Part shown: piece after piece, positions 25,113 through 30,439 of the stretch | Numbering within the stretch: the stretch's first letter is position 1 | Layout of the letters: each line of letters starts with the position of its first letter | Source of the DNA: a virus | Direction: 5' to 3' (one strand) | IMG/VR virus record: IMGVR_UViG_3300021962_000416 | Coordinates: 1 to 31,193 of that record | DNA: 31,193 nt | The notes under the pieces: model-generated | Told to the model about the DNA's origin: nothing | Databases searched by the model: none | What the model saw: the letters and a program-made list of their open reading frames with translations, nothing else | Made by a program: the position numbers and the translations under genes

Positions 25113-27557
25113 TTAGGCAAAAAAGAACTCACTATTTGTTAATTGTTGAATATCTAAATTACCTTTTTCAGGTACTTCAGGTATTTTCTCATGTAGTTCA
25201 ACAGGTAATTGTTTAAGTACATCATTTCTAAAATTAGCTAATATGTCATGTTCAGTAAACATGGTAACAAAAGCTTCTCTTAAAGATTTGTTAAGCACTT
25301 CAACATCACCAGCAGTGGTACCAAAGCTGTCATGTACATTGCAGAAATTAGTAATACCATTTTTATATGCGATATTAACTGTTTCCATCATTGCAGCACT
25401 GTCAACACTGTGTACAACATTAGGTGCAACCCCATTGCCCATTCTTAGTTTGTCTGTTTTGTCTGTCTCTGTGTTAATTCTGGGTTTAATAACTTCACCC
25501 ATTAACATTGCCTTAACCCTTTTTGATTTCATTTCAGGATAAGATTGATACACAGGAAAACCAACAGGCGTTACCCAATGCACTGGCAATTGTTCTTTAG
25601 CCACTACTCTTGCAATAGTCTGTAAATAATTCATACCAATTCTCGCTGATTTTAAATTATCACCAATACTATCCCAAATTACACTAGCTAAATAACTAGC
25701 TGGCCTGAAAACATCATCAGTAAATGGATGGTCTTCACCTTTGTCTTTTCTTTTAGTTAAATCTTCAACAACAAAATCAGTGCATGAATATCTTGTTGAA
25801 CCATAACAAATAGTCATAATACTTCTTTTGGTAGTTGAACGTTTAATACCATAATCTAACCACTGTTTTGCATACAAGTTACCATCAGCAGCATCTACTT
25901 TTAATTTTTCAATTACAGCATCAGCAACTAATTGATAAATGTCTTGTGGTTTATCAGTAGGTATTAAATTAACTAACTTTCCAGCTTTTGCATCTCTAAG
26001 CATTAAAGAATAAATTTGAAGTCCATTACATGAACCATCAACGTTAACTGGAATTTGTGAAACAAATCCATAACCTTGTTCTTTAAATCTTTTCCACTCA
26101 TCACAAAATGCAAGAAATTGAAAAGCATTAGAAGCTTCTTCCCATTGTCTATTTGACATAGGGTCATTAGCACAAGCAATAATCATTTGCTCGTTATCTT
26201 TTACCCATTGTTCTCTGTCTTCAAGAGATATTTTATCTTCACCATACATGTTGGCACCATGTACAGCAAGCCAAAATGCACCTTTGTTTTCTTCTGTTAA
26301 AGGTTTGCCGTGTGCAAAAGACAATAAAGCTTTAGCACCAGATATACTCTGATAATTTAAAAATGCAGGCACACAATAAGCTCTTCCTCTAAAATCTAAT
26401 TGTAAAGGAAAATATAAAGTTGCATAATCTTTAAATTTATCAGCAAGCCACATAATTTTTGCGTACAATAAACGCTTAGAAAACATTCTAGCATTCTCTG
26501 TGTGTGCCATAACAGCCTGTTTCTTCCAAGCTTTACGACTTTCAACATTACTATCAATGTCATGTGGTTTGTTTGGTATTTCATAATTAGTAATAGGCGG
26601 CATACCACCAATTGCTAATCCTTTATCCCATGCTTCCTGCATAATTTTTAAAATAAACTTATTAATTTTAAAAGGCGTATTTTGCATAAGATTAACTGCA
26701 TTATACACTTTTGGCATATCAAAATTCTCAAGTTCTTTTTTAAATAACTTGTTTTTTTGTTTAACCAAATCCAACTCAGGAAGTTCTTTAGTCCAATATC
26801 CGCCGCCAGTTACTGTTGACCACATTTTAGGTGGCATAACTGTAGGTAAATATTCAGGATTTAATAATTCGTTAAATTGATTACGATTATTAATCCAGTC
26901 TCTGGTTTTTTGTGTTTGTTTTATAATTTTAGCTTTTTTATGGTTAATGGTTTCGGTACCAATTTCAATCATACCAGTAGCCATAATCATAAGCTCAACT
27001 AATCTAAGACCAACATGCAATTTAACAGGCGTACTCCATTCTTCCCAACTAACTACACTACGTTTTGCACTCTCTTTTAGTTTTCTTCTTTTGTATGTGT
27101 AATTAAATGACCTTTTATCTAAATCACTTTTAACTGTATCATATAATTCAGGATTCAAAAATTTGAAATTCCTCAAAGCTATTTCAGTCTCAACTTTACC
27201 GCCAAGCGATATGCAAGTGGCAGTTAAAGGTTTATACTGTGTAATAGTATTAATGATATGTTTACCAGTAATCAAAGCAAGTATTTCAGGCTCAACTTCA
27301 CACATTTTAGTAAACGCAATAGATGGTTTACCAATGGTTTGTTTTGATTGTTCTTCTACCCATTCAGCAATAGCCATTGCCAATGGTCTTATAGTGTTGG
27401 CAACCATGACTTTGCCATAACTGGTTACACTCTCTTCTTCACGTTCAATGTGTGAATGAAGTCTTTTATTTGTTCTATTCTTACCCAATGCAGCCATTTC
27501 TTTTTCATGTGCAAGCTCATCAGTATAAGTCGGCATACTCTCAATTAATTTAGCCAA
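25113..27557 (-). CDS. T7-type single-subunit RNA polymerase
   Basis: An 814-residue polymerase (T7 is 883). Catalytic residues: D507 in VDGSCNG (T7 D537), K577 and Y585 in TTKRSIMTICYGS (K631, Y639), and D743 in HDSFG (D812), with exactly 71 residues from the last Asp to the end, as in T7. D388-F-R-G-R matches the DWRGR segment. The protein ends E-F-F-F-A, like the F-A-F-A foot of T7. The specificity loop region (about 679-706) differs greatly from T7, which fits the non-T7 promoter family seen in this window. It is preceded by its own promoter-like site at 27596-27615, so it may activate itself. Confidence 0.99.
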   Translation of the reverse strand: MAKLIESMPTYTDELAHEKEMAALGKNRTNKRLHSHIEREEESVTSYGKVMVANTIRPLAMAIAEWVEEQSKQTIGKPSIAFTKMCEVEPEILALITGKHIINTITQYKPLTATCISLGGKVETEIALRNFKFLNPELYDTVKSDLDKRSFNYTYKRRKLKESAKRSVVSWEEWSTPVKLHVGLRLVELMIMATGMIEIGTETINHKKAKIIKQTQKTRDWINNRNQFNELLNPEYLPTVMPPKMWSTVTGGGYWTKELPELDLVKQKNKLFKKELENFDMPKVYNAVNLMQNTPFKINKFILKIMQEAWDKGLAIGGMPPITNYEIPNKPHDIDSNVESRKAWKKQAVMAHTENARMFSKRLLYAKIMWLADKFKDYATLYFPLQLDFRGRAYCVPAFLNYQSISGAKALLSFAHGKPLTEENKGAFWLAVHGANMYGEDKISLEDREQWVKDNEQMIIACANDPMSNRQWEEASNAFQFLAFCDEWKRFKEQGYGFVSQIPVNVDGSCNGLQIYSLMLRDAKAGKLVNLIPTDKPQDIYQLVADAVIEKLKVDAADGNLYAKQWLDYGIKRSTTKRSIMTICYGSTRYSCTDFVVEDLTKRKDKGEDHPFTDDVFRPASYLASVIWDSIGDNLKSARIGMNYLQTIARVVAKEQLPVHWVTPVGFPVYQSYPEMKSKRVKAMLMGEVIKPRINTETDKTDKLRMGNGVAPNVVHSVDSAAMMETVNIAYKNGITNFCNVHDSFGTTAGDVEVLNKSLREAFVTMFTEHDILANFRNDVLKQLPVELHEKIPEVPEKGNLDIQQLTNSEFFFA

Positions 27558-27620: not shown

Positions 27621-28076
27621 TTACCACCATTTTGGTGTTTCAGTCTTCCAAGTAGCAATATCTTTTTTATCATGTTTATAATACATTCTATAAGCCTCTA
27701 TTGGATTATCAGATTTGTATTCATCAGGCATAGCCATGGCAAAAGCAGTTAAGTCTTTACAATCATGCTCATAATCAGGTAAAGATTTAATAACGTCATA
27801 TGATTTATGATTTATATGTTTACCATATCTAAGTTTATATTCTTCATTTAAATATTTAGACAAATCACGCAGCCAATTAAAATTAGCAACACTTTGAGAT
27901 GCCCATATAGTACACGGATGTTTAGCGTGTGTTGGTTTATAAGGCACATCAATGCCTTTTTGAGACAACACAGTGCATAACATTTGAGCTGTTTCTAATA
28001 TCATTTTTACAACATGTTTATCACAATGATATTTAGCACAAGTTTTAGGGTCTTTATCTAATATAAAAATATTCAT
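27621..28076 (-). CDS. Conserved phage protein with CDKHVVKMI motif, function unknown
   Basis: A 151-residue protein beginning MNIFILDKDPKTCAKYHCDK and continuing H-V-V-K-M-I-L-E-T-A-Q-M-L. Proteins with this N-terminus (L-D-x-D-P, C-D-K-H-V-x-K-M) are widespread in phages, including cyanophages and T4-like phages, and are left hypothetical. Cys, His and Asp spread through the first 25 residues and W-x-x-x-x-W-x-L-R-D-L near 77-87 are conserved features; the C-terminus ends TWKTETPKWW. It may be an enzyme, but I do not know the reaction. Its ribosome binding site AAGGAG lies inside the end of the upstream 37-codon gene. Confidence 0.85.
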   Translation of the reverse strand: MNIFILDKDPKTCAKYHCDKHVVKMILETAQMLCTVLSQKGIDVPYKPTHAKHPCTIWASQSVANFNWLRDLSKYLNEEYKLRYGKHINHKSYDVIKSLPDYEHDCKDLTAFAMAMPDEYKSDNPIEAYRMYYKHDKKDIATWKTETPKWW

Positions 28077-28200: not shown

Positions 28201-28776
28201 CTATTTTTTAAAGTAATTTTTAAAGTATTGACCCTGAATAATAAAAGGTTTTGTTTTATATTTAGTATCAATTTCTAACACACGCAATTTAAGCAAGTTA
28301 TTAAGCTGCCTATTAATAGAACCAGCGTTAAACTGTGGGTATTTGTCTCTAAGTTTAGCCAATAAAGGTTTTTTCTTAAATGGCACATTCTCAAAAACAA
28401 ATCTCATTATACATTGTTGAATATCAATTTTATCATCCTGTTTAATTACTTTATTAGGAAGAAATTGAATATCAGACAATTTATATTTAAGATTTAAAGC
28501 AGCCCATCTGGCAACAGATGTTGTTTCACTATAATTAGTGTAAACAAACTTAGCCTCTTCATAATCTAAAACTTTAATAACAATGTTTTTATATTTGTTA
28601 AAATCAGCTTCAGATACGCCAGCAGCAGCATAATCACAAACATTTACATTCCAGTAATTAGATAGTTTTTTATTTACTGTATCATAAAAAATTATATCTT
28701 TATCAGACAAAAAACGCCGTCTAGTCTCTATATTATCTATAAATGCACTTCTAACATAAAAATCAGTAGAACTCAT
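28201..28776 (-). CDS. Early protein with winged-helix-like C-terminus, function unknown
   Basis: A 191-residue, Lys/Asn/Tyr-rich protein starting MSSTDFYVRSAFIDNIETRR. The last 65 residues look like a winged helix: L-L-A-K-L-R-D-K-Y, a turn, then FNAGSINRQLNNLLKLRVLE and a two-strand wing (about residues 137-180). It lies shortly before the RNA polymerase gene among early genes, with AAGGAG upstream, so a DNA-binding regulator of early transcription is possible, but this is inference. The N-terminal 120 residues resemble nothing I recognise. Confidence 0.75.
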   Translation of the reverse strand: MSSTDFYVRSAFIDNIETRRRFLSDKDIIFYDTVNKKLSNYWNVNVCDYAAAGVSEADFNKYKNIVIKVLDYEEAKFVYTNYSETTSVARWAALNLKYKLSDIQFLPNKVIKQDDKIDIQQCIMRFVFENVPFKKKPLLAKLRDKYPQFNAGSINRQLNNLLKLRVLEIDTKYKTKPFIIQGQYFKNYFKK

Positions 28777-28822
28777 GTATTTTACTCCTTGTTAAAATTA
28801 AATTGCCGTTTAGTCTTTTGAT

Positions 28823-28873
28823 GCAACAAACTAGGCACACCAATGGCGTACCTAGTTTATACCACAATGTTGC
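28823..28873 (-). ncRNA. Structured intercistronic RNA element with ribozyme-like outer stem
   Basis: On the minus strand GCAACA (starting within the TAG stop of the upstream gene) pairs with TGTTGC at the other end, the same stem sequence as in the hammerhead at 29144-29201. Inside is a long hairpin, AACTAGGTACGCC with a matching strand ending GTGCCTAGTT (about 12 bp with two G-U pairs), and a 10-nt unpaired stretch TTGTGGTATA on the 5' side. CTGATGA and GAAA are absent, so it is not a standard hammerhead. It could be a terminator, a processing hairpin, or another or decayed ribozyme. Confidence 0.5.
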
Positions 28874-29088
28874 TATTTGTTTTCTCTGGTGTCAATTGTC
28901 ACGGTAACCATGACAGACCCACAAAAGCGGTGGTGGTGGTCTTCATTCAAATTATCCAAAAATTTTGCAAAATCTCTGGCTGTTATACCGTCATTGAATT
29001 TGAACTCATGCGTTGTAATTGTAAAAGGCTTATTGTTTTTGTCGTATTCATCACCTAAAACGTTAATTACTGCATTGTCTATATACAT
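28873..29088 (-). CDS. Small early protein, 71 aa, function unknown
   Basis: Starting at ATG 29088 the protein begins MYIDNAVINVLGDEYDKNNK and ends TVTIDTRENK. It contains F-A-K-F-L-D-N-L followed by the His cluster E-D-H-H-H-R-F, and looks like a small alpha/beta protein. The start is chosen over an upstream ATG (29121) because GGAGC lies about 7 nt before it. The gene follows the hammerhead at 29144-29201, whose cleavage would give it its own 62-nt leader, and it is followed at once by another structured RNA. Function unknown. Confidence 0.7.
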   Translation of the reverse strand: MYIDNAVINVLGDEYDKNNKPFTITTHEFKFNDGITARDFAKFLDNLNEDHHHRFCGSVMVTVTIDTRENK

Positions 29089-29117
29089 AATTATTGCTCC
29101 TGTTTGTTTGTTAATTA

Positions 29118-29148
29118 GCAATATAAATTGCCAAGTTGCTTATGCAAC
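29118..29148 (-). other. Two small leader hairpins downstream of the ribozyme cut site
   Basis: After cleavage the RNA would start UGUUGC. The GTTGC of this end can pair with GCAAC four nt later (29148-29135), and a second hairpin GCAAT/ATTGC follows (29131-29118). Both lie before the ribosome binding site of the 71-codon gene. The first one uses the same strand that forms ribozyme stem I, so the two folds exclude each other. Confidence 0.6.
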
Positions 29149-29201
29149 AGACACCGCCTTTGTGACGGTGTTTCGACTATTAAAAGTCTCATCAGTGTTG
29201 C
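29144..29201 (-). ncRNA. Hammerhead ribozyme, type I
   Basis: On the minus strand: stem I strand GCAACA; core CTGATGA; stem II GACT-TTTAAT-AGTC; core GAAA; stem III from ACACCG to CGGTGT with an A-rich loop; cleavage triplet GTC; stem I strand TGTTGC. All invariant hammerhead core bases (C3, U4-G5-A6, G8-A9, G12-A13-A14, A15.1-U16.1, C17) are present. Ends lie in stem I, hence type I. Predicted cut is between the nucleotides opposite plus-strand 29150 and 29149. It starts 2 nt after the stop of the 132-codon gene and precedes the 71-codon gene. Confidence 0.92.
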
Positions 29202-29203
29202 TA

Positions 29204-29602
29204 TTAGTGGCCAGCTTTAGAGTAACCAGCATTTAACTTAATACGCTCAGCAAGCCTGCTGTTTCTGAACTCAGCGTCTTTTTTTTCTTTTAGGATGTCA
29301 TTAACAGCTATTACAGCGTTGCGGTGTCCTTGCTCCATTTGTAACAATTTTTCAGCAAACTGTTTTGAATTAACCCTCTTAGACTTTGCCAGCAAGTCTC
29401 CACCGTCAATTGCATTTAAGTGGGCTCCAGTGGTATTACCCCAAATATTATCTTGAATTACAAGGCCTGTACTAACTGAATTAAAAGCAATACAAGTATT
29501 ATAAGACATATAAAACGTTGTATTTAAGCTTTCAATATAAATTGCTTTATTGTTATTGCCTCTGGCATAATTCCAGATTTTAATAGGTGTTTCGTTTGTC
29601 AT
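29204..29602 (-). CDS. Early protein, 132 aa, function unknown
   Basis: From ATG 29602 the protein begins MTNETPIKIWNYARGNNNKA. It contains Y-I-E-S-L-N-T-T-F-Y-M-S-Y-N-T-C-I-A-F and NIWGNTTGAHLNAIDGG (about 55-71), then a Lys/Glu-rich helix near 90-118. The middle segment (strand, S-Y-x-T-x-I-A-F, W-x-x-T-T-x-x-H-L) resembles small uncharacterised proteins in cyanophages, but I cannot name a family with certainty. The start at 29602 rather than 29617 is favoured by GGAG 9 nt upstream. It lies between two hammerhead ribozymes, so cleavage would leave it as a single-gene mRNA. Confidence 0.75.
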   Translation of the reverse strand: MTNETPIKIWNYARGNNNKAIYIESLNTTFYMSYNTCIAFNSVSTGLVIQDNIWGNTTGAHLNAIDGGDLLAKSKRVNSKQFAEKLLQMEQGHRNAVIAVNDILKEKKDAEFRNSRLAERIKLNAGYSKAGH

Positions 29603-29628
29603 AGTATTTAACTCCATTGTTTGTTTGT

Positions 29629-29644
29629 TATTGCGTATGCAATA
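29629..29644 (-). other. 5'-end hairpin released by ribozyme cleavage
   Basis: The RNA left after cleavage starts UAUUGC-AUAC-GCAAUA, a perfect 6-bp hairpin beginning at the first nucleotide. The UAUUGC strand is also the 3' strand of ribozyme stem I, so the hairpin and stem I are alternative folds. The ribosome binding site of the 132-codon gene follows. Confidence 0.65.
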
Positions 29645-29694
29645 GACACCGCCGTGAAGCGGTGTTTCGGCCTGTTAGGCCTCATCAGTATTGC
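29639..29694 (-). ncRNA. Hammerhead ribozyme, type I
   Basis: On the minus strand: stem I GCAATA; core CTGATGA; stem II GGCC-TAACA-GGCC; core GAAA; stem III ACACCGC-TTCACG-GCGGTGT (7 bp); cleavage triplet GTC; stem I TATTGC. The core is complete and all three stems are perfect. Predicted cut is between the nucleotides opposite plus-strand 29645 and 29644. Its first base directly follows the TAA stop of the 45-codon gene. It shares core and stem III sequence with the copy at 29144-29201 but differs in stem II, with matching base changes that keep pairing. Confidence 0.95.
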
Positions 29695-30196: not shown

Positions 30197-30364
30197 TTAT
30201 AACCACCCTTCTTTGTTTGCTTTTCTAAGCATCTCAATTTTTTTGTTTTTGTCTGTTTCTTTTTGATAAGCATTAAAAAACGCTTGTTTTGCAGTATTGT
30301 CAATATATTGCTCTTTATGTCGTTGGGCGTACATATTTTGCACTGCTTTGTTAATTGTAGGCAT
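30197..30364 (-). CDS. Small early protein, 55 aa, function unknown
   Basis: The frame encodes MPTINKAVQNMYAQRHKEQY, then IDNTAKQAFFNAYQKETDKN and ends RKANKEGWL. It looks like one or two amphipathic helices rich in Lys, Gln and Asn, with no membrane segment. AGGAGC lies about 7 nt before the ATG, right next to the 3' strand of stem III of the hammerhead at 30382-30439. It is the first recognisable gene of the early transcript. No family recognised. Confidence 0.7.
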   Translation of the reverse strand: MPTINKAVQNMYAQRHKEQYIDNTAKQAFFNAYQKETDKNKKIEMLRKANKEGWL

Positions 30365-30381: not shown

Positions 30382-30439
30382 TGTTTGTTTCGCTCTATGC
30401 TGTGAGCTCATCAGTCATATATGTAATATGAGACAAACA
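30382..30439 (-). ncRNA. Hammerhead ribozyme, type III
   Basis: On the minus strand: stem III strand TGTTTGT with cleavage triplet GTC; stem I hairpin TCATAT-TACAT-ATATGA; core CTGATGA; stem II GCTC-ACAGCATA-GAGC; core GAAA; stem III strand ACAAACA (7 bp). The core is complete and all stems pair perfectly. Ends lie in stem III, hence type III, unlike the two type I copies. Predicted cut is between the nucleotides opposite plus-strand 30432 and 30431, so the downstream RNA starts with the stem I hairpin. The ribosome binding site of the 55-codon gene follows stem III within about 5 nt. Confidence 0.92.

Follow-up and report, generated by a model that had tools for sequence, protein, structure and literature searches.

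Type I, II, and III hammerhead ribozymes in the early region of T7-like pelagiphages and their possible role in early mRNA processing

The element considered here lies at positions 29144 to 29201, on the minus (coding) strand, of a 31,193-nucleotide (nt) stretch of viral DNA comprising positions 1 to 31,193 of IMG/VR record IMGVR_UViG_3300021962_000416 (hereafter, the window), and it is a genuine type I hammerhead. On the basis of its sequence, the window is assigned to a T7-like pelagiphage of the genus Pelagivirus (Autographiviridae), infecting Pelagibacter; its RNA polymerase is 84 to 85% identical over 814 amino acids (aa) to those of Eistla, HTVC142P, HTVC168P, and HTVC031P. A scan of the 31 kb with a descriptor covering all three circular permutations of the hammerhead recovered exactly three copies: a type III hammerhead (30382 to 30439; cut predicted at 30432^30431), a type I hammerhead that is the first of its type in transcription order (29639 to 29694; cut predicted at 29645^29644), and the element at 29144 to 29201 (cut predicted at 29150^29149). 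The same descriptor recovered none in 1.7 Mb of dinucleotide-shuffled sequence. All three copies lie upstream of the gene for the T7-like single-subunit RNA polymerase (25113 to 27557), i.e., in the early region, and these hammerheads and the genes around them are all on the minus strand. The type III copy lies in the leader of the first early gene (30197 to 30364; 55 aa; AGGAG), which lies directly behind it and whose homologs sit behind type III copies in 14 loci. There follow a 45-aa open reading frame (29832 to 29695; AAGGAG), whose stop codon directly abuts the first type I copy; a 132-aa early gene (29602 to 29204, from an ATG at 29602; weak match to phrog_5643) between the two type I copies; and a 71-aa early gene (28873 to 29088; AGGAG) between the 29144 copy and a decayed type I site at 28823 to 28873. 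An earlier note on this DNA, made from the letters alone, had the element at 29144 starting 2 nt after a stop codon, which is confirmed; the codon belongs to the gene that ends at 29204.

Read 5' to 3' on the minus strand from 29201 to 29144, the element is GCAACA-CTGATGA-GACT-TTTAAT-AGTC-GAA-ACACCGTC-ACAAA-GGCGGTGT-C^TGTTGC. It is composed of stem I (29201-29196/29149-29144), the core CTGATGA (29195-29189), stem II (29188-29185/29178-29175), the GAA (29174-29172), stem III (29171-29164/29158-29151), and C17 (29150). Both type I copies present CUGANGA...GAAA...NUH ordered around three stems with stem I open, and both have GUC as the cut-site triplet; the copy at 30382 to 30439 has the same core with stem III open. 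The cut that the earlier note had placed between 29150 and 29149 is consistent with the rule of cleavage after NUH, and the stems that it quoted are correct. The hammerhead is the minimum-energy fold of the 29144 copy (−21.6 kcal/mol; z = −3.7; equaled by 0 of 200 shuffles) and likewise of the 29639 copy (z = −4.4). As had been claimed, the differences between these two copies keep the pairing, with one compensated pair in stem I (C-G versus U-A) and two in stem II (A-U versus G-C and U-A versus C-G), three in all. The best Rfam matches of the window copies are Hammerhead_3 (RF00008) for the type III copy (42.6 bits; E = 3.5e-7; below the gathering cut-off) and RAGATH-1-hammerhead (RF03152) for the two type I copies (33.9 bits for the 29144 copy and 27.8 bits for the other, both short of the gathering cut-off of 56.3 bits). 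At gathering thresholds, Rfam reports no hammerhead either in the window or in ten relatives, a possible reason for these hammerheads having gone unnoticed.

Covariation among homologs, which the earlier note had proposed as the check on its claim of a type I hammerhead selected for RNA structure, supports that claim. Across 18 distinct type I sequences, 306 of 306 cells are paired (100%), both-sided changes are seen in 13 of 17 pairs, and the covariation score is 0.70, compared to 0.22 in shuffles, none of which (0 of 500) reach it. For type III, 96.4% of the cells are paired and the score is 0.47 compared to 0.14 in shuffles (again, 0 of 500 reach it); the picture for type II is alike. In slid controls for types I and III, the paired fraction drops to 27 to 48%. 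The unpaired core positions (CTGANGA, GAAA, and NUH) are fixed while the stems covary, and this holds in three circular permutations. These alignments consist of descriptor hits, which already demand some pairing. A core-only pattern with stems I and III left free recovered 45 matches in 651 kb, 44 of them with the full fold, the 45th being a spurious start that overlaps a real copy; because core-only hits nearly all display the full fold, the concern about selection bias is answered for stems I and III. Stems broken alongside conserved genes, the pattern that the earlier note named as speaking against such selection, were not seen at 29144 to 29201; a different site, 28823 to 28873, has lost the core and kept stems I and III.

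In related contigs and isolates, we recovered 183 hammerheads, 126 of them distinct and belonging to all three permutations, in the early region and on the coding strand. They come from loci encoding relatives of the polymerase, from isolate genomes, and from a pattern scan of viral contigs; as that scan was seeded with type III, the counts by type (53 type III, 46 type I, and 27 type II among the 126) are no census. Relatives carry one to five hammerheads each, with some loci having five in a row (III III I II I), and in 19 whole phage records hammerhead core matches fall on the coding strand in the early region. Cultured isolates with hammerheads include HTVC031P, Eistla, HTVC168P, HTVC142P, HTVC109P, HTVC019P, HTVC022P (MH598798; one type I copy at 2297 to 2359, with its cut predicted at 2353^2354; 67.3 bits), and others, with HTVC031P, HTVC168P, HTVC142P, and HTVC109P having an additional hammerhead at the end of the record, just ahead of gp01. 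A type III copy of HTVC121P (L059, 658 to 780; 49.6 bits) has a 60-nt hairpin-forming insert nested in stem II, with the core intact. Genome-contig scans with the RNA polymerase of HTVC019P and integrase recovered no proviral relatives.

The placement of these hammerheads follows distinct rules. At least two hammerheads are present in 50 loci, and in all 50 they share one strand within the locus. In all 38 distinct loci where type III occurs together with type I or II, it comes first. Of 53 distinct type I copies, 42 have a stop codon between −4 and +3 nt of their start, compared to 0.93 expected, most commonly with the stop TAA inside the 5' arm of stem I (GTAACA); no type III copy is placed in this way (0 of 59). 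In most loci, type III instead occupies the 5' leader, 10 to 26 nt upstream of a start codon with a ribosome-binding site. Hammerheads avoid coding sequence in the annotated isolates (combined P = 0.001), the exceptions being two HTVC109P start codons that are apparently annotated too far upstream. In many of these phages, A/C-rich leaders (AACAAACAAACA) stand ahead of the ribosome-binding site behind type I sites (e.g., 29100 to 29120 and 29605 to 29628, minus strand, in the window). The 5'-GAAA side of type III stem III is the same sequence as this leader, and cleavage there would free the leader.

From the motif, covariation, strand, restriction to the early region, type order, and stop codon adjacency observed here, we infer cleavage and its use in mRNA processing: the element is likely to be a cis-cleaving type I hammerhead, one of a set of type I, II, and III ribozymes by which T7-like pelagiphages divide their polycistronic early transcript into gene-sized mRNAs. 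The set would thereby take the part played in T7 by host RNase III. Given the established chemistry of hammerheads, type I cleavage would leave the ribozyme and the stem III hairpin on the 3' end of the upstream product. With a type I copy at the upstream stop codon, these would cap the 3' end of the mRNA and leave the stop codon intact. A type III copy in the 5' leader just before the ribosome-binding site would give a downstream mRNA with a 5'-OH end, on which the stem I hairpin starts at nucleotide 1, and a type II copy would put a hairpin on each side, capping both ends. The position of each type matches the ends that its permutation would protect.

The downstream products of type I cleavage offer a further candidate step. 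A repeat of the 5' arm of stem I just behind the cut could re-pair with the released arm into a 5'-terminal hairpin, which may also hinder religation. Candidate hairpins of this kind in the window are GTTGC-ATAA-GCAAC (29135 to 29148, minus strand), which would reuse the 3' arm of stem I, and TATTGC-ATAC-GCAATA (29629 to 29644, minus strand). By a strict criterion that was picked after looking at the data (Watson-Crick hairpin with a loop of 3 to 7 nt), a tight 5' re-pairing hairpin is found in 10 of 21 distinct type I products, both window copies included, compared to 0.49 expected and a maximum of 6 in 200,000 simulations. A first score, which counted any hairpin within 40 nt and allowed G-U pairs, was uninformative (Fisher P = 0.45). 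The differing stem I arms were also considered as barcodes that set the copies apart, but since some phages have one arm more than once, this idea was abandoned. As a tentative extension, a T7-like genus may have exchanged the protein-based processing of early mRNAs for a ribozyme toolkit whose permutations are each used according to position (III for 5' caps, I for 3' caps at stop codons, and II for both), with the duplicated stem I arm refolding after cleavage to protect the new 5' end and make the cutting irreversible; the end protection and the refolding are both inferred steps.

Several observations weigh against this processing model. The re-pairing hairpin is missing in 11 of the 21 distinct type I products. 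At 28823 to 28873 (minus strand), the stem I arms and a long stem III are kept and CTGATGA-stem II-G is lost; the same core loss is common to the related loci L002, L004 (L004:6950), and L050 (L050:6694), and in the close relative L003 the type I hammerhead at this position is intact (L003:223-285). The loss in the window and its nearest relatives implies that cleavage is dispensable there: the hairpin may have a use that does not depend on cleavage, or the site may be decaying. T7-like relatives in which hammerheads were not detected manage without them; pattern searches of the whole records gave no match in HTVC120P, HTVC200P, and HTVC119P, and Roseobacter phage CRP-171 yielded one reverse match to the type II pattern. 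The proposal that type III occurs only after a noncoding leader was weakened by HTVC031P-like phages, which have two type III copies in a row, the second behind the annotated gp01. Further, the loci are related, and nominal probabilities such as those given above hence overstate independence.

Among the other explanations, a regulatory switch survives best, although we regard it as unlikely. Here, folding would be blocked by a ribosome terminating at the stop codon in or beside stem I, or the repeated arm would compete for stem I, such that processing senses translation instead of being constitutive. The stop codons of the 42 type I copies noted above, most commonly inside the 5' arm of stem I, are in keeping with this, as is the potentially competing arm in 10 of 21 products. 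However, stop codon adjacency is equally expected if the ribozyme merely caps a minimal 3' untranslated region, and type III and most type II copies are placed otherwise. Quite improbable is the release by paired hammerheads of a gene-containing RNA that is then circularized in the manner of retrozymes or viroid-like RNAs, instead of linear mRNAs. The two window type I copies do flank one gene, with predicted cuts 495 nt apart, and eukaryotic retrozyme hammerheads are reported to release circularizing units (PMC4918200). Yet the stem I arms of the two copies differ (GCAATA/TATTGC versus GCAACA/TGTTGC), such that the excised ends would meet with one C-A mismatch; types I, II, and III are mixed in many loci; and Perreault et al. 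(2011; PMC3088659) sought circular or spliced products without finding any. Although one of the four window sites has decayed with its stems kept, it is very improbable that the elements are relics or DNA-level hairpins (terminators or recombination sites) devoid of ribozyme activity and kept by chance or for another reason, given the fixed unpaired core amid covarying stems in three permutations, the lack of a terminator-like T-run behind the window copies, and the failure to find hammerheads on the opposite strand.

Other features of the window were noted alongside the hammerheads. Short direct repeats lie at the left end of the genome (30781 to 30816 and 30900 to 31010), comprising overlapping 10-nt units ACCAGAGATA and ATACCATATGTTGTATG repeats adjoining a TATAAT-like sequence; these are perhaps early promoters or a terminal region. 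A consensus promoter scan of the early region gave 25 matches, barely above the 19.8 in shuffles (standard deviation, 4.6). The gene at 27621 to 28076 (minus strand) matches phrog_624 strongly and, in Pfam, pyrimidine dimer DNA glycosylase weakly. The 11-nt sequence GACTARACGGC occurs at 28716 to 28726 and 28805 to 28815 (minus strand) and nowhere else in the window (2 copies compared to 0.16 expected, with one mismatch allowed). The early regions of pelagiphages contain it repeatedly, with 60 distinct contexts among pelagiphage loci and, in the listed cases, on the coding strand; it lies either within a gene (often in frame as RLDG) or in an intergenic position ahead of a T-run and leader; some copies have an upstream complementary arm and are terminator-like.

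If the early transcript is indeed processed by these hammerheads, it would be a natural case of RNA catalysis organizing a viral operon, bearing on the role of hammerheads in phages, a matter that the field has described as unsettled (PMC6155905). The position rules are strong enough to predict RNA ends in marine phages with cultured isolates, and as RNA-seq data from infection with one carrier, HTVC022P, are public (BioProject PRJNA1253180; PMC12753301), the question is directly testable on existing data.

The closest known counterparts are clustered hammerheads flanking prophage genes, for which Perreault et al. (PMC3088659) proposed a role in mRNA processing; the tandem prophage hammerheads described there cleave in vitro, and the Agrobacterium tumefaciens triple also does so in Escherichia coli. 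Like those clusters (the A. tumefaciens ardA triple and those of C. scindens and A. caulinodans), the pelagiphage loci have several hammerheads on the coding strand, of all three types, between small phage genes. They differ in being in the early region of free marine T7-like phages with cultured isolates, with type III before types I and II, type I at stop codons, and a possible refolding arm; such rules do not feature in the relevant section of Perreault et al. In T7, host RNase III cuts the early transcript at five early sites (PMC4858673), which resemble the hammerheads in being cut points between early genes that give gene-sized mRNAs. However, a host protein acts on stem-loops in T7, whereas the pelagiphage RNA would be self-cleaving, with a 5'-OH and a 2',3'-cyclic phosphate as the resulting ends. 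Paired type I hammerheads that could excise a unit RNA are also a feature of retrozymes and viroid-like RNAs, but here each unit is an ordinary phage gene, the hammerhead types are mixed, the stem I arms are mismatched, and there is no sign of RNA circles or unit repeats. The core and stem layout of RF03152 and RF00008 are like those of the window copies, all of which score below the gathering cut-offs, and in them there is no convincing counterpart to the additional 5' hairpin of RF03152. In the open-licence literature, we found no paper linking pelagiphages to hammerheads by title and abstract, nor the T7-like setting, type order, stop codon placement, or refolding arm. The individual copies are ordinary hammerheads, and clusters of hammerheads flanking prophage genes are already known, whereas the T7-like early-operon setting, the rule of type by position, the placement at stop codons, and the duplicated stem I arm with its possible refolding appear to be new.
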